Origin: Succinimonas amylolytica DSM 2873
GTDB lineage: Bacteria; Pseudomonadota; Gammaproteobacteria; Enterobacterales; Succinivibrionaceae
NCBI RefSeq assembly: GCF_000378405.1
Contig: NZ_KB899637.1
Coordinates: forward strand, 492,050 to 556,049
Direction: 5' to 3'
DNA length: 64,000 nucleotides
Position numbers and translations under genes: made by a program. Below the pieces are notes generated by a model. That model saw nothing but the letters and a program-made list of their open reading frames with translations, made no database searches and had not been told where the DNA came from. Shown in pieces: positions 4,025 through 25,647 of the stretch; position 1 is the stretch's first letter, and the number at the start of each line of letters is the position of its first letter.

Positions 4025-4725
4025 TGACCACGGCAAAGATTGAGATAGCTTTCCAGTCGTTCTGGTTTGTAGGCACCGGCCGGGAGGCCGGAGTCTATGC
4101 CGATTCCATTCCCGTAAAAAGAACACTGGTTTCTGAGTCCGGAATTCCGGTGCCGGTCCCCTGCGTTCCCGGAAAAACCGTCAAGGGCATGTTCCGGGCC
4201 GCCTTTCAGACTGCCGGCGGAAACGGCTGGTTTGGTACTAAGAAGGAAGCCGAAGAGCTGGAACACAGGCTCTTCGGGCAGCCCGGACCGGACAAGCTTT
4301 CGGAACAGTCTCCGGGGCAGCCCGGACCGGACAGGCCCGCGGAACAGTCTCCGGGGAAGTCCGGAAATCCCGGAATACTGCATTTCAGCATGCTGGAAAT
4401 CAGCCCGGCCCTCAAAGCGTATCTCAGGAAAGAGCCTGATGCGGCAGGCGAGCTTTTCCGGACGGTGAAGAGCACCGCCATCGACCCTGATACCGGTACG
4501 GCCAAAAACAAATCGCTGCGGGAGTATGAGGTGGTGGTGCCTTTAACTCTTACAGGCGAAATCTCCTTCTGCGAGGATGGGATCCGGGATCCGGAACTCC
4601 CGGGAGCCCGGGAACTTACAGAGAAGCTTAACCAGGTAGCGGCTCTGATAACGGAGCTGGGAGGCCGCAGAACCCGCGGTTTCGGGCAGTGTGTCATTAC
4701 TGTTAGGGAGGAGCCCCGGAAATGA
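4024..4725 (+). CDS. RAMP-superfamily Cas7-like protein (single domain)
   Basis: A 233-residue RAMP protein, probably a backbone subunit that grips crRNA in the type III effector. VPGKTVKGMFRAAF near residue 50 is the helix-start motif of Csm3/Cmr4-type RAMPs. LGGRRTRGFGQ at about 212-222 is the glycine-rich loop that defines the superfamily. Residues 85-110 hold a perfect-frame tandem duplication of a 13-residue Pro/Gly unit, probably a disordered loop. The start codon shares a base with the cas10 stop (TAATG), so the two are translationally coupled. Cas6 is an alternative RAMP family, but no catalytic-type histidine near the N-terminus and the small-insert architecture argue against it. Confidence 0.75.
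   Translation: MTTAKIEIAFQSFWFVGTGREAGVYADSIPVKRTLVSESGIPVPVPCVPGKTVKGMFRAAFQTAGGNGWFGTKKEAEELEHRLFGQPGPDKLSEQSPGQPGPDRPAEQSPGKSGNPGILHFSMLEISPALKAYLRKEPDAAGELFRTVKSTAIDPDTGTAKNKSLREYEVVVPLTLTGEISFCEDGIRDPELPGARELTEKLNQVAALITELGGRRTRGFGQCVITVREEPRK
4276..4353 (+). repeat. 39-bp in-frame tandem duplication inside the RAMP gene
   Basis: Two adjacent 39-base units (4276-4314 and 4315-4353) encode GQPGPDKLSEQSP and GQPGPDRPAEQSP. They differ at a few positions near the unit centre. A third, partial copy (GKSG) follows. The length is a multiple of three, so the frame is kept. Confidence 0.9.
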
Positions 4726-6539
4726 AGAAATGGTTTGTTCTGGAGACCATAGACGACATCATAATCGGCACCACCAATGCGGGAGCCTTCGTATCCGCTA
4801 CCCAGGGCTATATCCCGGGCAGCACCGTCATGGGAACTGTCTGTGCTCTTTATGGCAGAGATAATTTTGAGGCGGATACGCTTAACCTGCTTTTTCAGGA
4901 AAATATGGCGGAATTCAGCGATTTCCTGCCCCTGAATGCGGAGGGAAGGGAGACCTTTCCGGCTCCCATGTGCCTCCATGCCGAAAAGAGTCATGACAGC
5001 AGCAGTGAGGTGCTGCTTAATTTCCTGAAGAGCGGCGTGAAGGAATCCTTTAAGCAGTATAACCAGATCCGGGGCGATAACCGGGACTCCCGTTTTTTCA
5101 GCTACAGTATCAGGCAGACGGTTACCGCCCGTACCGCCATTGACTATAAAACCGATACTGCCAGAAAAAGCGCTCTCTACAGCCGGAACTCCATTGCCGC
5201 CGGACAGTGCTTTCTGGGCTGCTGCCGGATACCGGACAGCCTGACAGAGGGCAGAGCCGCTGCCGGATCCCGTTCCGCCACCGCAATTAAGGAGGCCCGG
5301 GATGCGGTGTTTGACATCCTCAGGGACGGCCGGGTGCTGCGCATCGGGGCCAGCCGGGGCTCCGAATACGGCCGGGTGCGGGTTCATGACGTTACTGCTC
5401 TTATGGAGAGCTCCGCCTCCCGGCAGAATCCGGAATCGGGTACGGTGCTTCCGGACGGCAAAAGAGAGCTGGTGCTCTGGTGTCTCTCCAATACGGAGTT
5501 TCTGGATGCGCTGACCAGCTATGATTCCCCGGTGCCGGACAATTCCGGCATGCTCTGGGCTTTCGCCCGCCGGAATATCAGGGCGGAGTTTGTTCCGGAA
5601 CGGTCCTTTATAAGAACCGGCAGGACCCGGTATTTCAACAATGCCAGAGGCGGGCTGGATTCGGCCCGGGTTTATATAGCCAGAGGCAGCGTTCTCACCT
5701 ATACCTATGACTACAGCGGAGCGGATCTTCCTGGTATTCTCCGGGATCTGGAAGAGGAGGGGATCGGCATTTCCCGGCAGCTGGGTTTCGGCCGGGTGAT
5801 GGTGAATCCGCATTTTCTGCTTACCGAAGGCGTGTCCGGCGCAGAATCCCCGCTTTTCGAATCCGGTTTCACATTTTACAGAGACCGGTTTTCCGACGCG
5901 GATGATTCATACCTGAAGGACCCGGAGGTGCGCTGGCTCGGGGAGCAGCTCCAGGCCCGGAGAGACTGGGAAAGCATCGAAAAGCTGGCCGAATTATTCC
6001 TGAAGCGGGTAGCTGAAATGTATGAAAGCGCCCGGCGTTACTGCGGTATCGGAAAAGAGACGGATTTCGGTCCCGGAAAAACCCAGTGGCAGGCATTGCG
6101 GGACGTGCTGGGCGGCCTTTTTTCAGAAAGCATCACGAGTGACTGCCTCCTGGCCGCGGTCCTGAGGGTTACTGTTGCCGGCAAGGAGGAAACCCAGAAG
6201 GGCGCAGAGCTGAAACCTGATGATATCTGGAATATCTACTGCCTGTTCCAGGGCTGCACCAATGTGGAAATTACCTTCGGATCCGCCTTCCAGAAACTGG
6301 TGCAGGATCTGATCCGCGATGCCGTCAGACTTCAGATGGAAGAGAATGCCGAGAAGGCAGAAAAGACAGAGAAGGCAAGGAAGGCCGAGAATGCAGAGAA
6401 GGCTGCCCCGGGGCTGGCCTGCAGGGGGATCATCAGATGTCTGGATCATAATATGACGCTGCTGAACCCGCGGGTATACAGCGAACTTCAGCAGCTTAAG
6501 AAGAAGCCTGATGATGATAGGAAACAGGAGACCCGGTAA
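4722..6539 (+). CDS. csx10: Csx10-like RAMP protein (type III-D marker)
   Basis: The 605-residue protein matches the Csx10 layout: two RAMP-type halves. The N-terminal half has IIGTTNAGAFVSATQGYIPGSTVMG, a glycine-rich strand-helix typical of Csx10, given here as positions 13-39. LRIGASRGSEYGRV at about 205-219 is the diagnostic glycine loop. The C-terminal half ends with a second loop, ISRQLGFGRVMVNP. In type III-D complexes Csx10 acts in the Cas5-like position at the crRNA 5' end. Residues about 540-563 are a charged low-complexity Glu/Lys/Ala segment, probably a flexible or coiled linker. The gene overlaps its upstream neighbour by four bases (ATGA). Confidence 0.75.
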   Translation: MKKWFVLETIDDIIIGTTNAGAFVSATQGYIPGSTVMGTVCALYGRDNFEADTLNLLFQENMAEFSDFLPLNAEGRETFPAPMCLHAEKSHDSSSEVLLNFLKSGVKESFKQYNQIRGDNRDSRFFSYSIRQTVTARTAIDYKTDTARKSALYSRNSIAAGQCFLGCCRIPDSLTEGRAAAGSRSATAIKEARDAVFDILRDGRVLRIGASRGSEYGRVRVHDVTALMESSASRQNPESGTVLPDGKRELVLWCLSNTEFLDALTSYDSPVPDNSGMLWAFARRNIRAEFVPERSFIRTGRTRYFNNARGGLDSARVYIARGSVLTYTYDYSGADLPGILRDLEEEGIGISRQLGFGRVMVNPHFLLTEGVSGAESPLFESGFTFYRDRFSDADDSYLKDPEVRWLGEQLQARRDWESIEKLAELFLKRVAEMYESARRYCGIGKETDFGPGKTQWQALRDVLGGLFSESITSDCLLAAVLRVTVAGKEETQKGAELKPDDIWNIYCLFQGCTNVEITFGSAFQKLVQDLIRDAVRLQMEENAEKAEKTEKARKAENAEKAAPGLACRGIIRCLDHNMTLLNPRVYSELQQLKKKPDDDRKQETR

Positions 6540-8077
6540 TGTCGCATCTTGTATTGTCACGAATTGTTATTGAAACACAGTCTCCGCTGGCACTGTCCTC
6601 CGGCGGTCATGATCTGGGCTCCTCCTCCGATGTGGCCCAGGACTGGAACGGGGTGCCCTGCATTCCTGCCGCTTCTCTTATGGGGGTGTGGCGGGCCAGT
6701 GCCCGGAGCTCCGGAATGAAGGATAGCTGGGACAGGTGGTTCGGCTGTGTAAACGGTCAGGAGCCGGGGCGGGCCTCGCGCATTGTGCTTTCGGACGGGC
6801 TCCTTCTTGATACCGCCGGTGATGCCAGAAGAGGGCTCGTTCCGAAATGCGAGCTGGAAAAGAATTTATTCACCCGGGAGAATTCGCCGCTGATTATCCG
6901 GAGACAGCGCACCAGAATCAATCACCGCGGTGCTGCTGATGCTGCCGGCCATGGCAAGTTTGATACCAAGTGCCTTATGAAGGGCGCCCGTTTTGTTTTT
7001 GATATCAAGGCCTTCACGGATGATGCTGCCGGGTTTTCGGCTGCGGATCTGAACGCCATTATCAGTCTTATCGGCGAAGCCTCCTTTGCTGTGGGCGGCG
7101 GCCGGACCAGCGGTTTTGGCAGAGTAGCGGTAAAGGGCTTCATTCAGGAAAATATTGATCTTGGCGAGGGCGGTGCGGCCTGCCTGAAGCGGATAACCGC
7201 ATTCCGCACCAGAAAGCCGCCGCATGAGATCCAGAAGGGAGTTCCGGGCATTTCCTTTAATGCGGACCGGATCCCGGAGCGGTTCCAGCTTCTTCTGGAT
7301 ATGAAGATGAATGTTTCGGGGCTCTATACCGCAGGAACCGGAGGAGACTTTCTTGACAGTCGCCTAAAAATGAGCTTCCCGGGGAAGATGGGAAAATCAG
7401 TGGCGCACCCCGGTTCGGAAACAGCCGTGGTCTGGGACGGCTGCCTGGGCAGAATCGACAGCACTGATAAGTTGCGGGCATTTATTCTTCCCGGCAGTGA
7501 AATCAAGGGCATAATCGCCCACAGGATGGCGTATCACTATAACCGCCTTGCGGAAAACTGGGCCGATACCGCGCTGGCTCTCGGCGGAAAGGGGGCGGAA
7601 ATGCCGGAGCCCCTCCAGGTTCTTCTGTTCGGAAGGGCCGGAGACGGGGCGGAAAAGGCTTCTTCAGCTAATGGAGCCCTGTCCGGGAAGCTGTTTTTCA
7701 GTGATGCCGTAGTGAGTTACCGGAAGTGCGCAGCCAGAAAGCATAACCGTATTGACAGAATTACCGGCGGGGTGATTGACAAGGCGCTTTTTACCGAGGA
7801 ACTGGCGGTGAGTCCGGTCTTTGATGTCCGGATCTATATCAGCAGGGATACCCTGGATATCCTTTCCGGGAAGGTTTCCCATGCCCGTTATGATGAGGAG
7901 ACGGTTTCCCGGGTGGTCACTGCTCTCAGAAGAACCTTCTTTGATCTTGCCCGGGGGCTTCTGCCACTGGGGGCGAAGAGCGGCCGCACGCTTGCAGAGT
8001 TTTCCGGATGCAAGAAGGCCTGTGCGGAGCTTGTGGAGTGCTGTTTCCCGCAGCCGGAAAAGAACGGTAAGAAGTGA
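6539..8077 (+). CDS. Tandem (double) Cas7-like RAMP protein
   Basis: The 512-residue product contains two RAMP modules in one chain. Module one has IPAASLMGVWRASA near residue 40 and the glycine loop GGGRTSGFGRV near 185-195. Module two has ILPGSEIKGIIAHR near 320 and HNRIDRITGG near 401-410, the thumb-type sequence of Csm3/Cmr4 proteins. A fused pair would supply two crRNA-backbone subunits from one gene, as type III-D systems often do. The catalytic Asp of target-RNA-cleaving Cas7 cannot be assigned with certainty. Its start overlaps the csx10 stop (TAATG), so it belongs to the same transcript. Confidence 0.75.
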   Translation: MSHLVLSRIVIETQSPLALSSGGHDLGSSSDVAQDWNGVPCIPAASLMGVWRASARSSGMKDSWDRWFGCVNGQEPGRASRIVLSDGLLLDTAGDARRGLVPKCELEKNLFTRENSPLIIRRQRTRINHRGAADAAGHGKFDTKCLMKGARFVFDIKAFTDDAAGFSAADLNAIISLIGEASFAVGGGRTSGFGRVAVKGFIQENIDLGEGGAACLKRITAFRTRKPPHEIQKGVPGISFNADRIPERFQLLLDMKMNVSGLYTAGTGGDFLDSRLKMSFPGKMGKSVAHPGSETAVVWDGCLGRIDSTDKLRAFILPGSEIKGIIAHRMAYHYNRLAENWADTALALGGKGAEMPEPLQVLLFGRAGDGAEKASSANGALSGKLFFSDAVVSYRKCAARKHNRIDRITGGVIDKALFTEELAVSPVFDVRIYISRDTLDILSGKVSHARYDEETVSRVVTALRRTFFDLARGLLPLGAKSGRTLAEFSGCKKACAELVECCFPQPEKNGKK

Positions 8078-8673
8078 ACAGGCAGACAGACAAACAAATA
8101 GACAGAATGGATGAGCGGAAAATGGAAGAGGTTTTAGACAGCGATTTCCGGATAGACGATGCGGAAGCCCGGGACATAATGGCCCGTCTTAAGCTTGATA
8201 ATGTGCATTACAGCAGGGCTCCCGGGGTTAGCCAGGAGCTCCTTTCGGGAGACGGGCTTAAGAAGCTTTTCAGTAGCTTTCCGGCTTCCCAGGGATGGAT
8301 TCTCTACACTGACGGCCTTGTTAACTTCATGAAGAGATCCGCCGGGGACGATTCCCGGGAAATTCTGGAGCTGGAACTCTGTGCCGCCGCAGACGGAGAG
8401 GGGTACTGCCGGACTCTGAGAGCGGTTCTGATAGCCGAGGATCTGTATTCGGTAACACAGGTTGATCCTGCCGGGGCGGGGGACAACGACTGGGTCTATG
8501 CCTATGCTGATACTGCCGTCCTGGTAAAGAACAGTTTCCGAAGCAACCTGGACGGCGAGGGGCTGGCACGGTACCGGGTATGGTATCGCTGTTTCCGCAG
8601 CGGGGCCGTTAATAATGCTGTAATGGGCCGCTGGGTACCCTGGATGCAGCAGTTTGCGGGATTTATCAGGTAG
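8074..8673 (+). CDS. Csx19-like (TIGR03984) small type III-D protein
   Basis: A 199-residue protein between the double RAMP and the TIGR03986-like gene, the position usually held by Csx19 (TIGR03984) in type III-D loci. It has the plain alpha/beta composition expected, with GWILYTDG near residue 72 and RYRVWYRCF near 168. No catalytic motif is visible. The first possible start is GTG 8074, overlapping the previous stop. ATG 8107 is a reasonable alternative because the intervening residues (NRQTDKQID) look non-conserved. Assignment rests mainly on gene order and size, so it is tentative. Confidence 0.5.
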   Translation: MNRQTDKQIDRMDERKMEEVLDSDFRIDDAEARDIMARLKLDNVHYSRAPGVSQELLSGDGLKKLFSSFPASQGWILYTDGLVNFMKRSAGDDSREILELELCAAADGEGYCRTLRAVLIAEDLYSVTQVDPAGAGDNDWVYAYADTAVLVKNSFRSNLDGEGLARYRVWYRCFRSGAVNNAVMGRWVPWMQQFAGFIR

Positions 8674-8691
8674 GTCAGGAGAAGAAACGCT

Positions 8692-11115
8692 ATGCCAGAA
8701 ATTATTGCACCCTACAGCTTTGTGCCGCTTCCCGGGAAGGTTTTTGCTCCGGACTGGGCCTATTGTGTTTCTCATGACCTTCCGTTCCCGGACGGCCTTG
8801 ACGGCGTTATCGATCTGGAGCTTGTCAACCATGGCGACATCTGTGTCGGTTCCGGCGGGGACGAGGAGTCCGAAGATGCGGATTCCGGCGGTAAAAAGCC
8901 CCGTGAGGTGTGGTGGGCCCGGGATCCTGAAGACCAGGACCGGCTCATTATTCCAGGCACCTCGGTGAAGGGGATGCTCCGGAACGTTCTCGAGATCGTC
9001 TCCCTGGCCCGGCTGACTCCGGATTCCATGTATCAGATAAGGGAGTTTTCGTACCGGGTCCTGGAAAAGGGCGATTACATGAATCAATACCAGAAATATG
9101 ACCGCGCCCGGGCCTGGCTCCGTTATGACCCTGCTGCCAAGACCTGGAAGCTCAGAAAATGCAAAAGCAAGCATGGAATTATTAAGATTTTTGATGAAGA
9201 GCTTAACAAATTCCTGGGTCTTGGCGCGGATTGCGGGATTAAGAACTATGACCCGAAAGCCGGTTTCAAGCAGCAGAGCCTTGAGGAGAAATACGAAAAG
9301 GCGCGGAAGTCGCAGAAGGGCCTGGATTTAAATACCAGGGTTCAGGTTTTTCTCAAAACGGAAACTCCGCATCGCGGGCAGTCCTATGAAAGGGTAGTCC
9401 GTATTGTCCCTGCCGGTTCTGAGGGGACTTCCAGTGCGGAATCCTCCTGTACCGGATATGTGGTTTTTTCAAATTTCCGGGTAGCTGAAGCAAGTGATAA
9501 GGACAAAAAGGCTTTCAGCTACATTTTTCCGGATGACGAGTATGAGCCGGAGATAGAGGTTTCCCAGGATATGGTGCAGGATTTTACCGGTGTCAGCGAT
9601 ACAGCCGCCAAAAACTTCAGGTATCTTCTCGGGCATCAGAACCAGGAGCTGGGAATTCCGGTATGGGCTTTCACGGACAAGGTGGATAGAAAGCTGAAGG
9701 AGCTCGGTTTTGCCAAAATGCCCCGTTTTAAGTGCAGGTACAATACAGAGCAGGTCACAGCCAGACACCAGTGGGGAGGGGATGATAAGGACTGGGAACT
9801 GGCTGATGAGCTCTATTTCTCATTGCCGGATCTTCTGTTCGGCACCGTCAGAAAGCAATGCGGGCATCTCAGTATCAGGAGCCGGATAGGCTGCACCGAT
9901 ATGGTGTCCGAGAAGGTTTCTTCTGCCGATTTCGGGGAGAAGATGGATATCGTGCTGAGTTCTCCCAAGCCGTCCTTTACCGCCATGTATCTGGAGGATA
10001 ATAAAACCTATTCCTCAAGCACCGGCATTCCCCGGTCCTCGGGATTCAAGCGCTACCGCTGTCAGGAAAAGTCCACTTCCGGCATTCCGGGAAAGGAGCC
10101 GGTTATTTCGAGGCTGGAGGTACTCAGGAAGCCCAAAGCATTTTCCGGAAGGATTAAGTTTCATAATCTTAAGAGAGAGGAGCTGGGAGCTCTGCTGTGG
10201 TGTCTGAGATTCGGGGAAACGCTGCAGGATTCCGCGAAATCTCCCTTTTACCACAATATCGGGCATGGCAAGCCCTACGGCCTCGGAGCGGTGCAGTTCC
10301 GCAGGATTGCCGTGGAGGTGCCGGATTATGACTCTTTCGGCATGAAGCGCCTTGATACTGCCGAGCTGGATGCCATGGTGCGGAGTTTCTGCGAGCTTAT
10401 GGACCGGGAGTTTGAGAAGGCCGGCGGCGGCAGCAATCTCTGGAGCACTTCGGCGCAGGTGGAGATGCTCCGCTCTCTGGCGGTTCTTCATGATGATTAT
10501 GTCCGGGATTCCCGGGTTTACAATGCTCAGGGAGATTTTAAGCATCTGAATAATGCCCGGATGCCGAAGATTCCGCGAGTTCAGGTTATTGATGGCACGG
10601 CTGTCACGGATCCCAAGGATGTGATTCAGCGCCAGAATCCTGCAGACAGTCAGCAGCTACTTACTATCACCGGCCTTAATAAAAAATACTGCAGGTATCC
10701 TGAAATCGATGCAATGTACCAGTATCTTATCAAGGAACGAGGCAACGATAAATATTTAAAGAAATGTTGTGACGATCTGGAAGAGAAGAAGAAGGAACTG
10801 AGAGAGCAGGAGAAATTTAACAGGATCAGCTGCGCGGCTATCAGGGATTTCATATCTTCAGAAGGCTATAAACAGATGTCCCAGATTTCTAACTGCAAGG
10901 CCGCCGGATCGCTGCCGGTTTCCGGTGACAAAATTACCGCCTTCCTTAAGGAAGTGGAGGCTGCTCAGGAGCTCTCGGAGACGGACAAAATAGTGCTGGA
11001 TGATATTCTTAAATCGGCATGGCTGAAAGCCTATAAGGAAGTTAAGAAAAATGCTGCAGTAAGAAAGAAGCTGGTGAATGACATCCGGGAGAAGCACGGT
11101 CTGTCTGAGACTTAA
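8692..11115 (+). CDS. TIGR03986-like RAMP protein with helical C-terminal extension
   Basis: The 807-residue product opens with APYSFVPLPGKV and HDLPFPDGLDG, the signature start of the TIGR03986 RAMP family found in type III-D loci. LIIPGTSVKGMLRNVLEIVS at about 85-104 and the glycine-rich HGKPYGLGAVQF at about 524-535 complete the RAMP features. From about residue 660 the protein changes to a Lys/Glu-rich, largely helical tail of roughly 140 residues. No separate small subunit (Cas11) gene is visible in the operon, so this tail is a candidate for that role (inference). A spacer of 18 bases follows the previous stop. This is the last gene of the operon and runs towards a convergent gene. Confidence 0.75.
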   Translation: MPEIIAPYSFVPLPGKVFAPDWAYCVSHDLPFPDGLDGVIDLELVNHGDICVGSGGDEESEDADSGGKKPREVWWARDPEDQDRLIIPGTSVKGMLRNVLEIVSLARLTPDSMYQIREFSYRVLEKGDYMNQYQKYDRARAWLRYDPAAKTWKLRKCKSKHGIIKIFDEELNKFLGLGADCGIKNYDPKAGFKQQSLEEKYEKARKSQKGLDLNTRVQVFLKTETPHRGQSYERVVRIVPAGSEGTSSAESSCTGYVVFSNFRVAEASDKDKKAFSYIFPDDEYEPEIEVSQDMVQDFTGVSDTAAKNFRYLLGHQNQELGIPVWAFTDKVDRKLKELGFAKMPRFKCRYNTEQVTARHQWGGDDKDWELADELYFSLPDLLFGTVRKQCGHLSIRSRIGCTDMVSEKVSSADFGEKMDIVLSSPKPSFTAMYLEDNKTYSSSTGIPRSSGFKRYRCQEKSTSGIPGKEPVISRLEVLRKPKAFSGRIKFHNLKREELGALLWCLRFGETLQDSAKSPFYHNIGHGKPYGLGAVQFRRIAVEVPDYDSFGMKRLDTAELDAMVRSFCELMDREFEKAGGGSNLWSTSAQVEMLRSLAVLHDDYVRDSRVYNAQGDFKHLNNARMPKIPRVQVIDGTAVTDPKDVIQRQNPADSQQLLTITGLNKKYCRYPEIDAMYQYLIKERGNDKYLKKCCDDLEEKKKELREQEKFNRISCAAIRDFISSEGYKQMSQISNCKAAGSLPVSGDKITAFLKEVEAAQELSETDKIVLDDILKSAWLKAYKEVKKNAAVRKKLVNDIREKHGLSET

Positions 11116-11308: not shown

Positions 11309-11704
11309 TCAGGATTTCTTTTCCCGTGCTGCTTTCCGGGCCCGGCGCTGTGCTCTGTTATTGGCCTCGGAAGCAAACAGTTCCACGGCTTCATCTGTAA
11401 GATCCTCATCCAGAATAGCACCTGTGGGCACGGTTTTTGCCCAGGGGCAGAGTTTCCGGTAATCCACATCCAGAATCACCGTGTACGGCGGCCCGCAGCG
11501 ATCGTTTACCGTCATATACAGATGACGGCCTCTCCGGCGGATCAGATCTTCCGGACTGCCGGCGCCGGGTGTATTCACAAGATCATATATCTCCTTCGGT
11601 ATCTCATACAGATCATGATTGCAGCCGCCGCCGATCTCCGCGGTACAGAGACCGGTTTCCGGATCATAGCAGCAGCGCCACCCCTTACCGGTTTTAAATT
11701 CCAT
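11309..11704 (-). CDS. Hypothetical protein, 131 aa, convergent to the cas operon
   Basis: I do not recognise this family. The N-terminus reads WRCCYDPETGLCTAEIGGG, then LYEIPKEIYDLV, RGRHLYMTVNDRCGPPYTV and a basic Arg/Lys-rich tail (NRAQRRARKAAREKK). The even, conserved-looking domain and good composition argue for a real soluble protein. Five cysteines are present but not in a clear metal-binding pattern. It lies between the cas operon and the two nucleotidyltransferases, on the opposite strand. Link to CRISPR function is by position only. Confidence 0.6.
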   Translation of the reverse strand: MEFKTGKGWRCCYDPETGLCTAEIGGGCNHDLYEIPKEIYDLVNTPGAGSPEDLIRRRGRHLYMTVNDRCGPPYTVILDVDYRKLCPWAKTVPTGAILDEDLTDEAVELFASEANNRAQRRARKAAREKKS

Positions 11705-11975: not shown

Positions 11976-13013
11976 ATGGATTATTTTCAGGAGCTTTTAA
12001 GATCAGAGAGCTATGATTTCATCCGGACAAACGAGAGACTCGGGGAGCGGATAATGCTTCTGGGGCTGGGCGGGAGTCATGCCTACGGCACTGCCAATGA
12101 GAACAGCGACGTGGATTTCCGGGGCATAACGCTGAACCTGCCCTCGGATCTTATCGGGCTTACGAAGTTCGAGCAGTATGTGGATGACGGTACCGATACG
12201 GTCATTTACAGCTTTAACAAGATGGTAAAGCTCCTTCTGGAATGCAATCCCAACACCTGCGAGATTCTGGGGCTGGAGGATGATCAGTACCTGATAAGGT
12301 CTCCGCTGGGGCAGGAGCTCCGGGAGAATGCCGGCCTCTTTCTTTCCATGCGGGCGGTACGCAGCTTCGGGAGATACGCCAACGATCAGCTCCGGCGTCT
12401 TCAGAATGCCCTGGCCCGGGATTCTCTGCCGCAGCCGGACCGGGAGCGGCATATCATGAATTCCGTAAAGTGCGTTATCGAGGACTTTAACCGCAAGAAC
12501 GGAGATGAAGTGAAGTCCTTAGCCGGAACAGGGGATTTCCGGATCAGCCTGGACAGCTCTGCTAATCCGGAAATGGAGACGGAGATATTTATGGATGCCG
12601 TCCTAAGCCACTATCCGCTCCGGCGGTTTGCGGATCTGTCCGGCCAGGTGCGGGCCGTGCTCCGGGAATATGACAGGCTCGGAGCCCGCAACAAAAAGAA
12701 GGACGACAATCATCTTAACAAGCATGCCATGCATCTGGTGCGGCTTCTGATGATGGCCCGGGACATTGTGGAAAAGCGCCGGATTATCACCAGGAGAACG
12801 GAAGATCTTTCCGTGCTTCTTTCTATCAGGCGGGGGGACTTCATGCTGGAGGACGGTACCTATTCCCGGGATTTCTATGCTCTCGTGGACGAATACGAAA
12901 GAAAGCTGGACGAGGCGATACGGCATACCAGTCTTCCGGAGGAGCCGGACATGGCAGCGGTAGGGCGTTTTGTGGAGCGGGTAAATCTTTATGCGGTTAC
13001 CGGGAGGTTCTGA
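11976..13013 (+). CDS. RlaP-type (COG3541) nucleotidyltransferase
   Basis: A 345-residue member of the DNA polymerase beta superfamily. The active-site signature is near residues 29-45: GGSHAYGTANENSDVDFRG, with the GS helix start and the DxD metal ligands. Downstream NPNTCEILGL and the helical C-terminal half fit the RlaP/YcgL group, named from RNA-repair gene clusters. Its substrate is unknown. SD-like AGGAG precedes ATG 11976. The stop is separated by one base from the next gene's start, so the pair is co-translated. It sits between the type III-D operon and its CRISPR array. Confidence 0.8.
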   Translation: MDYFQELLRSESYDFIRTNERLGERIMLLGLGGSHAYGTANENSDVDFRGITLNLPSDLIGLTKFEQYVDDGTDTVIYSFNKMVKLLLECNPNTCEILGLEDDQYLIRSPLGQELRENAGLFLSMRAVRSFGRYANDQLRRLQNALARDSLPQPDRERHIMNSVKCVIEDFNRKNGDEVKSLAGTGDFRISLDSSANPEMETEIFMDAVLSHYPLRRFADLSGQVRAVLREYDRLGARNKKKDDNHLNKHAMHLVRLLMMARDIVEKRRIITRRTEDLSVLLSIRRGDFMLEDGTYSRDFYALVDEYERKLDEAIRHTSLPEEPDMAAVGRFVERVNLYAVTGRF

Positions 13014-13014
13014 T

Positions 13015-13782
13015 ATGGATGCCAGTATGGAAAGGGAAATCAAAAACAGGCTGGAACAGGTGGAGGCGGAATATAGTGTCCGCATTCTGTTTGCTGCGGA
13101 ATCCGGTAGCCGGGCCTGGGGGCTGGAATCTCCGGACAGCGATTATGATGTCCGGTTTGTGTATGTGCGTCCGCTCAGGGAATACCTCCGGGTGGACGAG
13201 CCCCGGGACGTTATCGAATGGCAGCTTGACGCGGTTTATGACATCAATGACTGGGATTTTCGGAAAGCGCTCATGCACCTCGGCAAAAGTAACCCTGTCG
13301 TTTTCGAATGGCTTAATTCTCCGCTTGTCTACCGGGAAGCTCCGGAATGGGCCGGGGTGCGGGATGCGGCACAGCGAGTGTTTTCAGAAAGAGCCGGAGT
13401 CCGCCATTACTACGGTCTTGCCAAAAACACCTTCCTGACCCATCTTACCGGAGACCGTGTCAGCTATAAGAAGTACTTCTATGCGCTCCGTCCGCTCCTG
13501 GCTGCCAGATATATCGAATCCCGGCATGAGGCACCGCCGATGCGTTTTCAGGAGCTTATGAATCAGGTGCTGCCGGAGGATCTCAGGGAGGCTGTAACCG
13601 CGCTTCTGGAGGTGAAACGGCAGACTCTCGAAGGGGATCTCCTGCCCCGGATTCCGGCCATAAGCGACTTTATTGAAGCCGAGATCCGTGCTCAGCAGGA
13701 AATCCTGGGCCGGCTCCCGGACAGCCGGAACCGGGACATTGCCGCGCTGAACCGGATTTTTCAGGAAATTGTCCTTGCCTGA
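13015..13782 (+). CDS. RlaP-type (COG3541, YcgL-like) nucleotidyltransferase, second copy
   Basis: A 255-residue paralogue of the preceding gene. ESGSRAWGLESPDSDYDVR near residues 24-42 holds the GS motif and the metal-binding DxD. Further matches to COG3541 are DVIEWQLDAVYDINDWDFRKAL and KSNPVVFEWLNSP. ATG 13015 is chosen because GGGAGG stands about 13 bases upstream; an in-frame ATG at 12991 would overlap the previous gene by 23 bases. The two copies differ clearly in sequence, so this is an old duplication or two subfamilies, not a recent copy. Possible accessory to the CRISPR locus, by position only. Confidence 0.8.
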   Translation: MDASMEREIKNRLEQVEAEYSVRILFAAESGSRAWGLESPDSDYDVRFVYVRPLREYLRVDEPRDVIEWQLDAVYDINDWDFRKALMHLGKSNPVVFEWLNSPLVYREAPEWAGVRDAAQRVFSERAGVRHYYGLAKNTFLTHLTGDRVSYKKYFYALRPLLAARYIESRHEAPPMRFQELMNQVLPEDLREAVTALLEVKRQTLEGDLLPRIPAISDFIEAEIRAQQEILGRLPDSRNRDIAALNRIFQEIVLA

Positions 13783-14706: not shown

Positions 14707-14960
14707 GCCGCAAAGGGGTCAACCCTTTCGCGGTATTGAAACAAGACTGTTAAGGATCTCAAAAAGAGTGGAGCCGTAAGCCGCAAAGGGGTCAACCCTT
14801 TCGCGGTATTGAAACCCCAGATTGTGGAACCGGGTAAGCAGAAGGGACGGAGCCGCAAAGGGGTCAGCCCTTTCGCGGTATTGAAACCGGCGTAGCATTC
14901 ATAGTATTCATCACGGAGAATTTCGCCGCAAAGGGGCCAACCCTTTCGCGGTATTGAAAC

Positions 14961-14997
14961 TCAACCTCGCCAGTAACCTCAAATTCTTCGGTTACGC
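14961..14997 (+). repeat. CRISPR spacer 4, identical to spacer 7
   Basis: This 37-base spacer starts TCAACCTCGCCAG and ends TTCGGTTACGC. The same 37 bases occur again at 15184-15220 as spacer 7. The flanking repeats differ in their central bases (GCCAACCC against GTCAATCC and GCCAATCC). Confidence 0.97.
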
Positions 14998-15183
14998 GCC
15001 GCAAAGGGGCCAACCCTTTCGCGGTATTGAAACTACTCCTGCCGAGGTACGCCGCTCCACTCCTGCGGGATGCCGCAAAGGGGGGCCAACCCTTTCGCGG
15101 TATTGAAACCATTGTCGCCGCAAATCTTATGTAACCCGGTTTCATGGGCCGCAAAGGGGTCAATCCTTTCGCGGTATTGAAAC

Positions 15184-15220
15184 TCAACCTCGCCAGTAAC
15201 CTCAAATTCTTCGGTTACGC
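15184..15220 (+). repeat. CRISPR spacer 7, identical to spacer 4
   Basis: A second, exact copy of the spacer at 14961-14997, three units downstream. Confidence 0.97.
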
Positions 15221-15398
15221 GCCGCAAAGGGGCCAATCCTTTCGCGGTATTGAAACTTAATTAAAAAATACACATTAACCGGGCTGTCCGCCAGCCGCAA
15301 AGGGGCCAACCCTTTCGCGGTATTGAAGCCTGGTCTTAATCTTTCCATCCACGTAAATCTGGATGTCAGCCGCAAAGGGACTGTCCCTTCGCGGCAGG

Positions 15399-15949: not shown

Positions 15950-17047
15950 TTATTCGGCAGCACTGTCAGCGGCCTTTTCGGCGGCTTCTCCGTTAGCAGC
16001 TGCATTTTCCTTGTCTTCTGCTGCTTCCTTCTTTTCCGGGAAGATGATGCTGGCCAGAATGCCTGCGCCCAGGGTAACCACAATCACAATCATGGAGATA
16101 ACGTTGGAAAGCTCCAGATCCGGCTTTCCGGCCAGACCGCAGGCGGCGTTGTAGATCAGCTTGAAGCCGATGAATACCAGGAGGAAGATTACGGCCTTTT
16201 CCAGATGGCACAGGAACTTGGTCAGCGACTCCAGCACGAAGTACAGGGATCTGAGACCGAGGATGGCGAAGATCATGGCGCTGTAGATAATGAGGGGTTC
16301 CTTGCTCACTGCGATTACTGCCGGCACAGAGTCAAACGAAAACGATACGTCGCTTAATTCCACCACACCGAGACAGAGGAACAGCGGGGTGGCATAGATG
16401 AGGCCGCTTCTCTTCAGTGTCAGAGACTGGTTTTCCGGAAGTGCCTTCAGCTCCTCCACGGTCTTTTTTCCCAGGAAGAAGGAGTGTCCCTGCAGCTTCG
16501 GCCACATGGGGAACAGGCTTCTGGTGAACCGGTAGGCCTTATGGGTGGAGTAGTCTTCGATTTCATCGTCGTCATCGCCGCCTTCCTTGAACATGACATA
16601 GGCAGTATAGAGCACAAAGAGACCGAAGAGGATTTCCACTCCTGAGCCGAAGGACAGCAGGAAGGTTCCCACGCCTACAAATATGGCCCGGAAGAAGATG
16701 GCTCCCAGAATGCCGTAGTAGAGCACCCGGTGCCGCATGCCCCGGGGAATCTTGAACCAGGTGAAGATTGCCATGATGGCAAAGAGGTTATCAACGGACA
16801 GGGACTTCTCCAGAACGTAGCCCGAGAAGAACAGCGAGGCCACGTCGCTGTTGAAATGCCAGTAGAGAAAGCCTCCGAAGCATACTGATACAAAGACCCA
16901 GAATACTGACCACAGGCAGGCCGAGCGGAACGAAACCTCCCGGTCGTCATGGTGGCACATGAGGTCGATTATCAGACAGATAATAACGGTGACTGCAAAA
17001 ATTATGATGGTGCTTGTTTCAAGCGTGTTCGGCAAACCTTCGGTCAT
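15950..17047 (-). CDS. terC: TerC-family integral membrane protein
   Basis: A 365-residue polytopic inner-membrane protein with about eight or nine hydrophobic helices. The two family signatures are present: VLEKSLSVDNLFAI in the N-terminal half and LSDVSFSFDSVPAVIAVS in the C-terminal half, with acidic residues inside membrane segments. An acidic cytoplasmic loop (EGGDDDDEIEDY) separates the halves, and the C-terminal tail is Ala/Glu-rich. TerC is linked to tellurite resistance and metal-ion handling, and works with TerD-type proteins at the membrane. It is divergent from the terD cluster across a 400-base promoter region. Confidence 0.93.
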   Translation of the reverse strand: MTEGLPNTLETSTIIIFAVTVIICLIIDLMCHHDDREVSFRSACLWSVFWVFVSVCFGGFLYWHFNSDVASLFFSGYVLEKSLSVDNLFAIMAIFTWFKIPRGMRHRVLYYGILGAIFFRAIFVGVGTFLLSFGSGVEILFGLFVLYTAYVMFKEGGDDDDEIEDYSTHKAYRFTRSLFPMWPKLQGHSFFLGKKTVEELKALPENQSLTLKRSGLIYATPLFLCLGVVELSDVSFSFDSVPAVIAVSKEPLIIYSAMIFAILGLRSLYFVLESLTKFLCHLEKAVIFLLVFIGFKLIYNAACGLAGKPDLELSNVISMIVIVVTLGAGILASIIFPEKKEAAEDKENAAANGEAAEKAADSAAE

Positions 17048-17455
17048 ACTTATTCCTTGAACTCATGGTTGAACTGTGCCGGAACTGCCGGCCGGCCGGG
17101 GTCAATTATAGACTAGTTTCTGCGGCGGGGGGATAATTTAAAAAGACGGATTATTAAAATCGCGTCTGAGATACCGGAATTATTTATGACCGGCAGGGAT
17201 ATCGGAGTCCGCAGAGGGGGAGATGTTCGGAGGTTTTTGCAATTCACTTCAAATTTTATTCCCGTCCCGCGCGGGGCTCGTTGACAGTTTTTTTTCCGGA
17301 AAAATATAATCACTTCAAACCGGCGGCCGGCCTTCGATTTCGGGAGCCCGGCGGTGCGGAGACGGTCATCCGGAGGCGCTCAGATCAGGTCTTCCGGGAA
17401 CTCCCGTCTCCGGGGCTTCTGCCGGAAATCAGAGTTTTATTTTCAGGAGTTCATT
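17048..17455. promoter_or_regulatory. Divergent terC/terD regulatory region
   Basis: No gene. A TATAAT on the minus strand (plus 17105-17110) could be the terC -10, without a good -35. The plus-strand promoter for terD is listed separately. Confidence 0.5.
17281..17310 (+). promoter_or_regulatory. Consensus sigma-70 promoter of terD
   Basis: TTGACA at 17281-17286 and TATAAT at 17305-17310 are both perfect consensus hexamers, 18 bases apart. Transcription would start near 17317, leaving a leader of about 140 bases. No operator could be recognised. Confidence 0.85.
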
Positions 17456-18037
17456 ATGCCTATTAATTTGTCAAAGGGTCAGAAGGTCAGTCTCACCAAG
17501 GGCAACCCCGGGCTTTCCAAGATTATGGTCGGTCTGGGCTGGGATGTTAATGCGTTTGATTCCGGCACCGATTTTGACCTGGATGCCTCCGTGTTCATGA
17601 CTGATGCCAGCGGCAAGTGTCCGTCTGATGCCGAATTCATTTTCTACGGCAATCTTGAGCACAAGAGCGGTTCCGTAAAGCACATGGGCGACAACCGCAC
17701 CGGCGACGGCGAGGGCGATGACGAGCAGATCGATATTGATCTTTCCAAGGTTCCCGAGAGTATTGGCAAAATCGCCTTTACCGTAACCATTTATGAGGCG
17801 GATCAGAGAAAGCAGAACTTTGGCCAGGTATCCAAGGCCTACTGCCGCATTGTGGATCAGTCCAACGGTCAGGAGATTGCCCGTTTCGATCTGGGCGAGG
17901 ACTTCTCCATTGAAACCGCGGTAGTGGTAGGCGAGCTCTACCGGAACAACGGCGAGTGGAAATTCAATGCCATCGGGAGCGGCTTCCAGGGCGGTCTGGC
18001 TGCACTCTGCGCTCATTACGGCATTGATGCCGCCTGA
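17456..18037 (+). CDS. terD: TerD/TerE-family protein (first copy)
   Basis: A 193-residue cytoplasmic TerD-domain protein. It starts with [11 protein letters not shown] and carries [10 protein letters not shown] and [15 protein letters not shown], the acidic loops that bind calcium in this family, then the conserved [16 protein letters not shown] near the end. TerD proteins are thought to tie metal sensing to membrane-associated TerC. ATG 17456 has CAGGAG at 17443-17448; an open extension further upstream lacks family similarity. A hairpin with five T follows the gene, so it may also be expressed alone. TerE is an equally good name. Confidence 0.9.
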
Positions 18038-18052
18038 CAGCAGGCGACCGGG

Positions 18053-18106
18053 ATCCCCTGAGGCCCAGGCCTTCCTCCGGAATGCGCCGGCAATAAGGGG
18101 ATTTTT
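18053..18106 (+). terminator. Probable terminator after the first terD
   Basis: ATCCCCT (18053-18059) pairs with AGGGGAT (18096-18102), followed by TTTTT. The loop is long, with smaller internal stems, so termination may be partial. Confidence 0.55.
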
Positions 18107-18164
18107 CCGTGACGGGGCGGAATAGCACCCCGGAAAACACAGCATACAAACAAGGAATTCAGAA

Positions 18165-18785
18165 ATGTCGGTAAAACTTCAGAAAGGACAGAAGGTCAGC
18201 CTGACCAAAACCAGCGCCGGTCTTTCAAAGGTGATTGTGGGACTCGGCTGGGACGAGGCGCCCCGGCAGAGCAGCGGGGGCGGCGGCTTTCTGTCATCCC
18301 TGTTTTCAGGCGGCGGCTCGGGGGGCAGCAGCATTGACTGTGACGCGTTTGCTCTTTTGCTTTCGGACGGGAAGCTTCAGGGGAAATCCGATGTGGTGTA
18401 TTTCGGAAATCTTGAGCACAAGAGCGGTTCTGTAAAGCATATGGGCGACAACCTGACCGGAGCCGGAGAGGGGGATGACGAGCAGATTGTCATCAACCTG
18501 GATTCCGTGCCGGCTCAGTATGATCGTATTCTGATGGGGGTGAACATCTACAGCGCCCAGTCCCGCAAGCAGCACTTCGGGATGATCCGGAACGCCTTTA
18601 TCAGACTGGTTGATGCCCGCACCAGCCAGGAGATGTGCATTTTCAACCTGACCGAGGACTATTCCGGCATGACCGCCATGGTGTTCGGGGAGGTGTACCG
18701 TCATAACGGCGAGTGGAAGTTCAATGCCATAGGACAGGGAACCACCGACGGCTCCATTAACGAGTTCATAAAGCGCTACGCCTAG
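18165..18785 (+). CDS. TerD-family protein with Gly/Ser insertion (second copy)
   Basis: A 206-residue TerD-domain protein, sharing [27 protein letters not shown] and GEGDDEQI with its neighbour; the acidic calcium-binding loop is intact. It differs in a Gly/Ser-rich insertion at about residues 35-55, after GLGWDE, probably a flexible loop. The long stretch of identity over [16 protein letters not shown] suggests a duplication with later divergence or gene conversion. A strong hairpin follows, so it may end a short two-gene unit. Confidence 0.88.
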   Translation: MSVKLQKGQKVSLTKTSAGLSKVIVGLGWDEAPRQSSGGGGFLSSLFSGGGSGGSSIDCDAFALLLSDGKLQGKSDVVYFGNLEHKSGSVKHMGDNLTGAGEGDDEQIVINLDSVPAQYDRILMGVNIYSAQSRKQHFGMIRNAFIRLVDARTSQEMCIFNLTEDYSGMTAMVFGEVYRHNGEWKFNAIGQGTTDGSINEFIKRYA

Positions 18786-18809
18786 CGCTGACGGCAGGTG
18801 ATAAAACGG

Positions 18810-18838
18810 AGGAGGCTTGCGGAGCCTCCTTCTCTTTT
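18810..18838 (+). terminator. Rho-independent terminator after the second terD-type gene
   Basis: AGGAGGC and GCCTCCT form the stem around TTGCGGA, followed by TCTCTTTTT. It separates the two terD-type genes from the biosynthetic genes. Confidence 0.8.
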
Positions 18839-18912
18839 TGTGGCTTTTCAGCTTTTTTATGCCCCTTTACAGGGCATTTTTCACAGTTTTTCTGCATTGC
18901 GGCAGTGCGGTT

Positions 18913-18944
18913 TTGCGGATATCCTGGCGGAAATCTGCTATTAT
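18913..18944 (+). promoter_or_regulatory. Possible promoter of the ter biosynthetic module
   Basis: TTGCGG at 18913-18918 and TGCTATTAT (extended -10) around 18936-18944 lie 40-70 bases before the ATP-grasp start. Spacing depends on which hexamer is used. The preceding terminator makes a promoter here likely. Confidence 0.4.
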
Positions 18945-18983
18945 TACGCGGTTTTTTAGAGCAGAATTTTGGAGGACGGCAGC

Positions 18984-19982
18984 ATGGTAAAGGTTTGGTT
19001 CAATCACTGGTTCAGCGCGGCATACAACATTATGAGCATGATAAAGGAGGATAATCCGGACTTCCGCATTGTCGGCTCCAACGAAAACCGGGTTTCCGTG
19101 CTTTCGGCAGTCTGCGATGAATGGTATCAGGAGCCCGCGCTTAAGGGAAACGACTATGCGGATTTCTGCCTTGATTTCTGCCGGGAGCACGAGATTTCCG
19201 TGTTTATGCCGCGCCGTGAAATGCTGGCCGTCAGCAGAAGAAAGGCCGATTTCGAGGCTGCCGGCGTTAAGGTTATGGCGGATGACTACGGGATCCTGGA
19301 GATTCTCAACTACAAGGACCGGGCCTACCAGGAGCTGGCCCGGCGGGGCGTTTCCACTATTCCCGAGTACCGGATTGTCACCACTCCTTCCGGCTTTGCC
19401 GAGGCCTACCGGGAGCTTTCCGGCAAATTCCGGGAGGTCTGCATCAAATTTGTTCACGACGAGGGCGGCAAAAGCTACCGTCTTATTGACAACACCCGCC
19501 GGGGGTATGCTGCGCTCTTCAGGAAGCAGAATACCAGAATGACCTATGATGCGGTCTTCGAGGCTCTTTCCGAGAGAGAGGAGTTTTCTCCTCTGATGGT
19601 GATGCCGAATCTGTCCGGTGACGAGGTCAGCGTGGACTGCCTCAATACGTCCCGGGGGCTTATTATGCTGCCCCGGATCAAGGATTCCTCCAGAATCGAG
19701 CGGCTTTCCTTCCGGGAGGATATTCTGGAGAAGACCCGGGAGGTATACCGGGCTGTAAAGCTGGAATGCCCCTGCAATATCCAGTTCAAGTATCTGGACG
19801 ATAAGCCGTATTTTCTGGAGGTTAACACCAGAATGTCCGGCGGGGTCCAGATGGCCTGTCTGGCGGGGAAGGTAAACATCCCCTCCATTGCGGTAAACAA
19901 GCTTCTGGGGATTGACCGGGAGTGGGAGATCTGCCGGGACGAGCGGTATGTCACCCATGTGGAGCTCCCGGTGCTTCTGTAG
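18984..19982 (+). CDS. ATP-grasp protein of the Ter biosynthetic module
   Basis: A 332-residue ATP-grasp ligase-like protein. CIKFVHDEGGKSYRL in the middle, then SGDEVSVDC and YFLEVNTRMSGGVQ, give the ATP-binding lysine and the metal-binding Glu/Asn pair. Homologues in Ter operons are predicted to join an amino or carboxyl group to a nucleoside-like metabolite. GGAGGA at 18971-18976 supports ATG 18984; TTG 18969 is in frame but overlaps that site. The next gene starts 21 bases after the stop. Precise substrate is unknown. Confidence 0.82.
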   Translation: MVKVWFNHWFSAAYNIMSMIKEDNPDFRIVGSNENRVSVLSAVCDEWYQEPALKGNDYADFCLDFCREHEISVFMPRREMLAVSRRKADFEAAGVKVMADDYGILEILNYKDRAYQELARRGVSTIPEYRIVTTPSGFAEAYRELSGKFREVCIKFVHDEGGKSYRLIDNTRRGYAALFRKQNTRMTYDAVFEALSEREEFSPLMVMPNLSGDEVSVDCLNTSRGLIMLPRIKDSSRIERLSFREDILEKTREVYRAVKLECPCNIQFKYLDDKPYFLEVNTRMSGGVQMACLAGKVNIPSIAVNKLLGIDREWEICRDERYVTHVELPVLL

Positions 19983-20003
19983 TTTCGGAAGCGAGGACCG
20001 GAG

Positions 20004-20792
20004 ATGCTGTTTTTTACCGACCTGGACAATACACTGATCTATTCCCACCGGCACTGTATTCCCGGAGACCGGGTCTGGGTGGAAATGCTTAACGGAAGAA
20101 ATCAGAGCTTTATGACAGCCCGGACAGCCGGTTTCTACCGTGCTCAGGACTGGCTGCTCCCGGTGCCCCTTACTACCAGAAACAGCCAGCAGTATGCCCG
20201 CCTGGCCCCGGCTCTGGAGGCTTTGGGCTGGCATGATGCCCTGGTTTCCAACGGTGCTGTTCTTCTGAGGGACGGGGTTCCGGATCCGGAATGGTGGGCG
20301 GAATCCCTGGAGATATCGGGAAGGGACAGATCGGAATATAATGCTGCCCTGGAGCTGGTGCGCGGCATGGTGTCTCCGGATTCCCTGGTGTCCCGGGATC
20401 CCTTCATGTTTTATGTGAAGACCGGCAGTGCCGCAGAGCTTTACAGCTTTCTGGTCCGGGAGACCGATGCCGCGCATCTGGCGGTGTTTCGGGATTCCCG
20501 GAAGGTGTACTGCCTTCCGCGCTCCCTGAACAAGGGGGCGGCGGCCAGGAGGTACCAGATCAGGTCCGGTCATGAGGGCTATATTGCCGCAGGTGACAGC
20601 GAGTTTGATATCCCGATGCTCCGCGCGGCCGATATCTGTCTCTGCCCCGAAGGTCTTCCGGATTTTGTTCCTGCCGGAAAAAGAATCGTCTGTTCGGGAG
20701 TGTTTTCCGACACGATCTGCGACCGGCTTACGGAGCTCCGGGAAACACTTTCAGGGGGCAGGAGTGCATTTTTTCAGAGGAATAACACGTGA
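20004..20792 (+). CDS. HAD-superfamily phosphatase of the Ter biosynthetic module
   Basis: A 262-residue Cof-type HAD hydrolase. FTDLDNTL gives the nucleophile Asp6 and Asp8, LVSNGAVLL is a motif II-like strand, the lysine is in LNKGAA, and AGDSEFDIPML supplies the acidic metal ligands. It would dephosphorylate a pathway intermediate. The stop overlaps the next gene's GTG start (GTGA). Found in most Ter biosynthetic clusters together with the CitE-like and PRTase genes. Confidence 0.82.
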   Translation: MLFFTDLDNTLIYSHRHCIPGDRVWVEMLNGRNQSFMTARTAGFYRAQDWLLPVPLTTRNSQQYARLAPALEALGWHDALVSNGAVLLRDGVPDPEWWAESLEISGRDRSEYNAALELVRGMVSPDSLVSRDPFMFYVKTGSAAELYSFLVRETDAAHLAVFRDSRKVYCLPRSLNKGAAARRYQIRSGHEGYIAAGDSEFDIPMLRAADICLCPEGLPDFVPAGKRIVCSGVFSDTICDRLTELRETLSGGRSAFFQRNNT

Positions 20793-21766
20793 TTGACAAT
20801 GTAAAGGAAAAATACAGCGTGGGTGCACTGCTGTATTCTCCGGCCCTGAACAGCAAGGTGGCCGGACGGGTTACCGGCGGAGACCTGGGCTCCCGGTATT
20901 CTCTGGCGCTCTGCCTGGAGGATACGATTTCTCCGGATCTGGTAACGCTCGCGGAAAAACAGGTGCGGGATACTCTGGCGCAGATCTGCACGGCCTCCCG
21001 GGAGCAGGAAATGTACGTGCCCCGGATTTTTGTCAGGGTGCGGGAGCCGGAGCAGGCGGAACGGGTGTTCGACATCATAAGCCCGTATCAGGACATTTTT
21101 ACCGGATTCATTTTTCCAAAATACACCGTAGCCAATGCCGCCTTCTACAACGAGGCGATCCGGAAGGTCAATGACCGGGCCCGCCGGACGGTTTATATGA
21201 TGCCGATTCTGGAAAGCGGGGACATTGTCGATTTCAGAACCCGGGCCGAGATGCTGGGAGCTATCAGGGATCTGATAGATCACGTGAAGGATCTCACCCT
21301 GAATGTCCGGGTGGGCGGAAATGACTTTTCCAACGAATTTGCAGCCCGCAGGCATGTGAACGAGACTATCTATGACATTCTGCCCATAGGTCAGCTTCTG
21401 GGAGACATCATTACCGTGTTTTCCCGTGATTATGTGGTTTCGGGGCCGGTATGGGAGTATTTCGCCGGTGCGAACGATGAATGGCGCACAGGGCTCGAGA
21501 AGGAGCTCCGGATGGATATCCTGAACGGCTTTATCGGAAAGACGGTGATTCATCCCCGGCAGATTCCGGTGGTGAATGAAATGCTGAAGGTGACAGAGCG
21601 GGACTACGAGGATGCCCGGGCCATCCTCAGCTGGGACGAAAGCGGCCTTCAGGTGGGCAAAAGCTCCGGCGGCGAAAGAATGAACGAAGTCCGTACCAAC
21701 TGCAACTGGGCGGCAAAGATCCTTCTTCTGGCGGAAATCTACGGAATCAGGCAGGAACATGTTTAG
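20789..21766 (+). CDS. HpcH/HpaI (CitE-like) lyase of the Ter biosynthetic module
   Basis: A 325-residue TIM-barrel protein related to citrate lyase beta subunits. LCLEDTIS, FIFPKYTV, MMPILESGDIVD and VRVGGNDFSNEF hold the expected acidic metal ligands, and GKTVIHPRQIPVV is the C-terminal strand typical of CitE. It is predicted to make or break a C-C bond in the Ter metabolite pathway. The start is GTG 20789, overlapping the HAD stop. The stop overlaps the next start. Confidence 0.85.
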   Translation: MIDNVKEKYSVGALLYSPALNSKVAGRVTGGDLGSRYSLALCLEDTISPDLVTLAEKQVRDTLAQICTASREQEMYVPRIFVRVREPEQAERVFDIISPYQDIFTGFIFPKYTVANAAFYNEAIRKVNDRARRTVYMMPILESGDIVDFRTRAEMLGAIRDLIDHVKDLTLNVRVGGNDFSNEFAARRHVNETIYDILPIGQLLGDIITVFSRDYVVSGPVWEYFAGANDEWRTGLEKELRMDILNGFIGKTVIHPRQIPVVNEMLKVTERDYEDARAILSWDESGLQVGKSSGGERMNEVRTNCNWAAKILLLAEIYGIRQEHV

Positions 21767-23944: not shown

Positions 23945-24135
23945 GGACAGGGAGAGCCCCCGCCCGGAATCAGGGCCGCGCTCCCGGAAATTATGCCGGA
24001 GATCGTGTTTTGAGAGCATATTTGCGGCATCGGAGCCAGCATCTGATAATATGACTGATTCCGCTTCCCTGAAGGGCGCTTTCCCGCGGGCGGATCCTGC
24101 CGGGAATGTCCGGCGGGCTATACAGAGGTTAACGA

Positions 24136-24927: not shown

Positions 24928-24940
24928 GGAGATTTGCCGA

Positions 24941-25642: not shown

Positions 25643-25647
25643 CTGGA

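Follow-up and report, generated by a model that had tools for sequence, protein, structure and literature searches.

The question raised by this locus is why two nucleotidyltransferase genes should stand between a type III-D CRISPR operon and its array. The stretch of DNA analyzed here (the window; 64,000 nucleotides in length) derives from the 3.96 Mb genome of Succinimonas amylolytica DSM 2873, whose nearest named relatives are Succinivibrionaceae, the first of them being an uncultured Ruminobacter MAG (locus L013). The six-gene type III-D effector operon (1925-11115, plus strand) was recognized through Pfam, NCBIfam and PADLOC matches and encodes, all on the plus strand, a Cas10 carrying GGDD (1925-4024), a Cas7-type protein (4024-4725), Csx10 (4722-6539), a Csx7-like protein (6539-8077), Csx19 (8074-8673) and a TIGR03986 RAMP protein (8692-11115). 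It is followed by the RlaP gene pair and then by a CRISPR array (14707-15340, plus strand) of nine repeats lying 72-76 nt (about 73) apart, with an apparent degenerate tenth repeat near 15370. The original prediction, according to which two RlaP-type genes lie exactly inside the CRISPR locus, is thus borne out as regards their position between operon and array by the open reading frames, the Pfam scores, the Cas matches and the nine-repeat array. The pair nevertheless lies outside the cas operon, as RlaP1 starts 860 bases past the operon end and an antisense ORF of 131 aa (11309-11704, minus strand) intervenes. This ORF belongs to no family in Pfam, NCBIfam, PADLOC or PHROGs, has no relative in loci L003-L092, and may not be a real gene. 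Scans for promoters and terminators performed no better than on shuffled sequences. Within the Cas7-type gene that follows cas10, a tandem 39-nt direct repeat, 90% identical, was noted at 4276-4353.

The first gene of the pair, RlaP1 (11976-13013, plus strand), encodes a Pol-beta-type nucleotidyltransferase of 345 aa, and the second, RlaP2 (13015-13782, plus strand), a nucleotidyltransferase of 255 aa, the two being separated by a single base (13014). The start of RlaP2 was taken to be the ATG at 13015; the longest ORF, from 12991, would overlap RlaP1. Both proteins exceed the cut-off (23 bits) of the Pfam RlaP family PF10127, RlaP2 over its full length with 273.2 bits and RlaP1 with 62.1 bits over positions 12-140 only of the 249-position profile. 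Their best matches among phage-protein families differ (phrog_388 for RlaP1, phrog_14344 for RlaP2), which marks them as divergent paralogues. The prediction that these tandem paralogues carry complete GS...DxD sites holds: G33 S34, D45, D47 and D74 of RlaP1 and G31 S32, D43, D45 and D72 of RlaP2 are each invariant in a set of 24 aligned sequences, the window included, and we take D74 and D72, respectively, to be the third catalytic acid. A strongly conserved stretch in the C-terminal part of RlaP1 reads RNKKKDDNHLNKHAMHL in the window (residues 238-254).

When genome contigs were scanned with RlaP1, 109 relatives were returned, the best 80 of which were kept as loci L013-L092; as the search used peptide patterns taken from the RlaP1 of the window, these are close relatives. 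RlaP2 directly follows RlaP1 in 65 of these best 80 of 109, is located elsewhere in the locus in two and was not seen in 13, two of which are ended by a contig edge. For example, the tandem pairs of Lachnospiraceae and their relatives (63 of the 78 loci L015-L092) have the same gene order as the window, with genes mostly overlapping or nearly touching and RlaP1 proteins at 57-67% identity, while they differ from it in their varied neighbourhoods and in the lack of any match to the window's Cas proteins. No shared partner gene emerged when immediate, co-directional neighbours of at least 100 aa, less than 300 bases away, were counted, as no Pfam family occurred in more than five of 89 such neighbours (from 58 of the 78 loci L015-L092). 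In one case, from a Lachnospiraceae MAG (L066, 9134-11017), an R2K-clade ATP-grasp domain (PF14243) stands N-terminally in one frame with RlaP1.

Among viral contigs, three RlaP1 relatives at 46-47% identity and no RlaP2 relatives were detected. The 50,697 annotated phage records contain 421 matches to phrog_388 and 86 to phrog_14344, phiKZ being one example; these phage RlaP proteins belong to the same families as the window's proteins but all fall below 60% identity, at 43% or less, and most of the RlaP1 matches are partial, with 80% of the query covered in 23 of 421. With RlaP1 as the query, plasmids yielded 15 records, two of which cover most of it. A phage or plasmid origin was rejected on these grounds, namely few relatives on viral contigs or plasmids and phage records all below 60% identity. 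A candidate fusion of RlaP1 with RlaP2 in L151 was likewise discarded, since the long ORF lies in a different frame from the RlaP1 match.

From its position, the pair had been guessed to modify RNA, nucleotides or proteins as an accessory to the defence system. An accessory of this III-D system might repair or tail host RNA damaged upon III-D activation, or modify crRNA or target RNA. The window's Cas proteins, used as queries in a search that other CRISPR types could escape, matched at only two of the RlaP1 loci (best 80 of 109), L013 and L014, both from Succinivibrionaceae; at the 29 other Pseudomonadota RlaP loci, nine of which were searched with four of the six proteins only, they matched at none. 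These 29 loci represent all other matching genomes among 398, and were examined in sets of 20 and 9. A simple repeat script, run across L013-L092, flagged an array in L013 and a weak one in L091, and in no other locus. At the level of whole genomes, the III-D RAMP (TIGR03986) was found in three of the 49 genomes behind 50 of the RlaP1 loci, the L014 genome being left out, and in two of these it exceeded the cut-off. The Cas10 palm family PF22335, which matched 27 of the 49 genomes (14 over cut-off), was dropped as a type III marker and replaced by TIGR03986 because it also matches the E. coli control and because most of its matches are confined to the GGDEF-like part. Among the 398 Pseudomonadota genomes, RlaP is present in 30 and III-D over the cut-off in eight, and the two occur together in the window's own genome and in G224, where they lie on different contigs; with the window's genome set aside, no significant association remains (p 0.41). 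Homologous pairs thus occur mostly away from CRISPR loci, the very outcome that had been named as refuting an accessory role.

Some support for an accessory role comes from within the Succinivibrionaceae. RlaP1 occurs in eight of 56 genomes and the III-D RAMP in ten (in G006 as a fragment), with both in four; RlaP1 is therefore found in 4 of 10 genomes with the RAMP versus 4 of 46 without it, a nominal association (Fisher p 0.027) drawn from few, related genomes. Furthermore, the window, L013 and L014, i.e., the three members found of one III-D sublineage, have the III-D operon followed by the pair in the same order, with an array after the pair in the window and L013 and none detected in L014. 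The TIGR03986 protein of the window is 61% identical to that of L013 and 48% identical to that of L014, compared with 27-34% (over long aligned stretches) for the other Succinivibrionaceae III-D loci. L014 has retained the pair although its six Cas proteins share only 43-62% identity with their counterparts in the window. A flank protein of L014, presumably an exonuclease, is 79% identical to its counterpart in the window's genome, while the next genus reaches 50-60% over parts and the incomplete genome G001 gave no good match. This close kinship of L014, together with the presence of the pair beside III-D in all three, points to an adjacency of long standing in a lineage of about genus rank. 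Such adjacency in three of three cases need not be expected from mere hitch-hiking, and it counts against the explanation favoured below.

Against an accessory role, of the ten Succinivibrionaceae genomes that match the III-D RAMP, the fragment in G006 included, six are without an RlaP1 match, and the pair is missing downstream of six III-D loci of the family (L129-L133 and L135), each readable for about 3 to 9 kb. The count of six omits L123, L124 and L125, whose contigs end 0.3-0.6 kb after the last cas gene, and L134, the fragment in G006. One of the six, L133, is a second III-D locus of the L013 genome, given that the YceG-like gene of G001, which holds L133, is 100% identical to that of L013. 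Conversely, the Succinivibrionaceae RlaP1 loci L120-L122 and L126-L128 have no match to the window's Cas proteins, L121 and L122 being on short contigs. G017 has both, the pair on a 3.7 kb contig and a III-D operon on a 4.3 kb one, in either case close to a contig end. The proteins themselves have no match to a CARF or SAVED domain (Pfam, E up to 0.1); this sensor of cyclic oligoadenylate is absent from some type III accessories. The word 'nucleotidyltransferase' does not appear in the main text, as available, of two papers on type III systems (PMC11229360, PMC12669027). Among the publications listed by literature searches, none was seen to deal with a pair of this kind at a CRISPR locus, which is no proof of absence. 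Linkage to III-D that recurs across lineages, by which a III-D accessory would be recognized, was not found, and the distribution of the relatives led us to reject a CRISPR accessory as the main reading. A role of this kind is accordingly unlikely, and the tempting but weakly founded call of a new CRISPR accessory is removed; what still speaks for it is the adjacency in three loci and the nominal association within one family.

The surroundings of the relatives point elsewhere. In the available part of PMC7824862, RlaP is described as the 'RNA ligase-associating Pol-beta' family and is predicted to restore lost nucleotides before ligation. RNA-repair genes are present at 14 of the 29 other Pseudomonadota RlaP loci: 12 have Rtc genes (L152-L160, L162, L168 and L170), in L166 the RlaP gene lies between Hen1 and Pnkp, and in L151 a tandem pair adjoins an RNA ligase. 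In 11 of the 12 Rtc loci an RlaP2 adjoins an rtcB or rtcA match, and in seven it lies between both; L170 has an RlaP1-like gene. Queries with repair proteins gave no match at the remaining 15 of 29 loci, some of which are on short contigs. A link of the family to RNA repair, which had also been noted at the outset, is further supported within the Succinivibrionaceae by L126, where a pair directly follows rtcR, rtcA and rtcB being encoded on the opposite strand. The L126 pair is the same tandem from the same bacterial family, its proteins being 52% and 44% identical to those of the window, but it differs in its rtcB/rtcA/rtcR repair locus and belongs to a separate tree lineage.

The RlaP proteins of rtcB-RlaP-rtcA operons resemble those of the window in that both window proteins pass the Pfam cut-off and keep the active-site residues and the predicted fold, and the full-length RlaP2 of the window is 41-47% identical to the 11 RlaP2 proteins of Rtc loci. 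Unlike these operons, the window has two consecutive, divergent family members, CRISPR and Ter neighbours and no ligase match adjoining, and its RlaP1 matches the Pfam model over one half only and carries an extended, strongly conserved C-terminal part. It counts against a repair role that no RNA ligase match was found beside the window's pair, and that in the other 78 RlaP1 loci, read with flanks of at most 10 kb and often less, the RtcB query matched only in L019 and L024, 3-7 kb from the pair. At the genome level, RtcB is present in 40 of 49 genomes that carry a close relative of RlaP1 versus 42 of 120 (Fisher p 2.8e-8, uncorrected for kinship) in a sample of Lachnospiraceae, the family to which one of those 49, itself part of the sample, belongs. 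RlaP2 was seen in the locus for 43 of the 49. The window's genome has two RtcB genes, the nearer of which is on the pair's contig at a distance of about 223 kb, while no RtcB match was obtained in the pair-bearing Succinivibrionaceae genomes G064 and G065, nor in the other nine of the 49.

As the relatives are almost always without CRISPR and often stand beside RNA-repair genes, the pair is most likely an RNA-repair unit that adjoins a CRISPR system. The explanation that we favour, and hold to be probably correct, is that RlaP1 and RlaP2 constitute an RNA-end repair module which became established beside the III-D operon and forms no part of the CRISPR system.

The history of the genes was examined through a midpoint-rooted RlaP1 tree of 30 rows. 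Its six Succinivibrionaceae rows from the window, L013, L014 and L120-L122 form one clade (100/100), which is nested within Lachnospiraceae rows (98/89), suggesting horizontal transfer. Inside this clade the three III-D-linked rows (window, L013 and L014) are not resolved as one group, and L126-L128 represent a separate lineage whose placement is unsure, as it is joined to a long branch. The pair is under purifying selection, with dN/dS values between the window and L013 of about 0.12 for RlaP1 and about 0.15 for RlaP2, compared to 0.23-0.27 for three Cas genes. Under the favoured explanation, the module may have entered the Succinivibrionaceae from Lachnospiraceae-like gut bacteria and subsequently been kept by selection, and its position between operon and array would have been set in the ancestor of the genus-level lineage and not by any need of the CRISPR system.

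This apparent transfer, the patchy distribution of RlaP1 within the family and the varied neighbours of its relatives would also suit a mobile defence module or a toxin-antitoxin-like module in its own right, which might make a nucleotide signal or modify a partner in the manner of HalB of Hailong or of MntA antitoxins. The AlphaFold (AF2) models (pLDDT 83.2 for RlaP1 and 88.9 for RlaP2) are both predicted to consist of a Pol-beta-type nucleotidyltransferase core and a helical bundle, and resemble HalB (Z 9.2 and 10.2, respectively) as well as MNT antitoxins. Middling Z values are common for such models, those of this size say nothing on function for such folds, and the relatives are found in repair operons. 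Furthermore, no PADLOC or NCBIfam model scored convincingly against either protein, the best weak matches being to PDC-S09 (E 0.02-0.03) and to MntA (14.0 and 13.4 bits, where the cut-off is 60). Neither a toxin nor an effector was seen as a partner: where an MntA system would have a separate HEPN toxin gene, the adjacent gene is a second nucleotidyltransferase. On balance, a mobile module of this type seems quite improbable.

The same models bear on whether the two proteins might be housekeeping or metabolic nucleotidyltransferases, akin to kanamycin nucleotidyltransferase, that act on a small molecule or a protein and are unrelated to RNA. In Foldseek searches, nucleotidyltransferases head the hits of either model. 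For RlaP2 these comprise 3c18, the kanamycin nucleotidyltransferase group and HalB (E 1.8e-5 to 8.9e-4), while RlaP1 matched those groups only more weakly (E 1.3e-3 at best), with TM-scores of 0.5 or less in both cases. The best VIA Z was 9.2 for RlaP1 and 11.1 for RlaP2, the latter to the nucleotidyltransferase DrrA at the top of the list. Matches to aminoglycoside nucleotidyltransferases and to DrrA could be read in favour of a metabolic role, but this likeness is one of shared fold only, a search of solved structures (PDB) by sequence gave no significant match for the pair, and relatives reside in rtc and Pnkp/Hen1 loci. A metabolic role is thus the least probable of the readings considered.

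If the pair is indeed a repair module, RlaP1 and RlaP2 would add nucleotides to damaged RNA ends, most likely those of cleaved tRNA, and the rebuilt ends might then be rejoined by an RNA ligase whose gene lies at another locus, with RtcB as the candidate. Since the C-terminal parts of RlaP1 and RlaP2 differ, each may recognize its own end or half of a broken RNA, or the two may act as a heterodimer. To our knowledge, no activity has been measured for any RlaP protein. A bolder version, which we regard as very unlikely, would couple the module to immunity within one Succinivibrionaceae lineage as a recovery arm: host RNA would be cleaved following III-D activation, the RlaP pair would rebuild the ends and RtcB would rejoin them. 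If true, an otherwise abortive immune response would become survivable for the cells. The favoured reading, that of a repair module beside the CRISPR system, draws attention to a widespread and apparently uncharacterized two-enzyme RlaP module of gut bacteria, which has apparently moved between phyla and is enriched together with RtcB. As the role of RlaP in RNA repair is, in the available part of the published source, a prediction from genome context, a compact pair with two different C-terminal parts offers a practical test case.

Traces of local rearrangement are visible around the pair. In L013 (7843-9842), the stretch that separates the intact pair from the cas operon upstream holds a decayed extra RlaP1 that continues into another YceG-like gene, the shorter of two, which suggests duplication and rearrangement at this spot together with recombination with the Ter region. 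In the window, the Ter/Yce stress and biosynthesis genes (15950-27996) occupy the far side of the array and include TerC (minus strand), two TerD genes, ATPgrasp_Ter, C-C_Bond_Lyase and PRTase_2/TRSP, in addition to a third TerD-like stretch (24379-24924), a 262-aa ORF that lacks a Pfam match and is presumably HAD-like, and a YceG-like ORF (25648-27996) which is 73% identical to a PF14266 protein of L013. The array of L013 is likewise followed by genes from TerC to PRTase. Finally, two spacers of the window's array are identical (about 14961-14997 and 15184-15220), suggesting a segmental duplication within the array.
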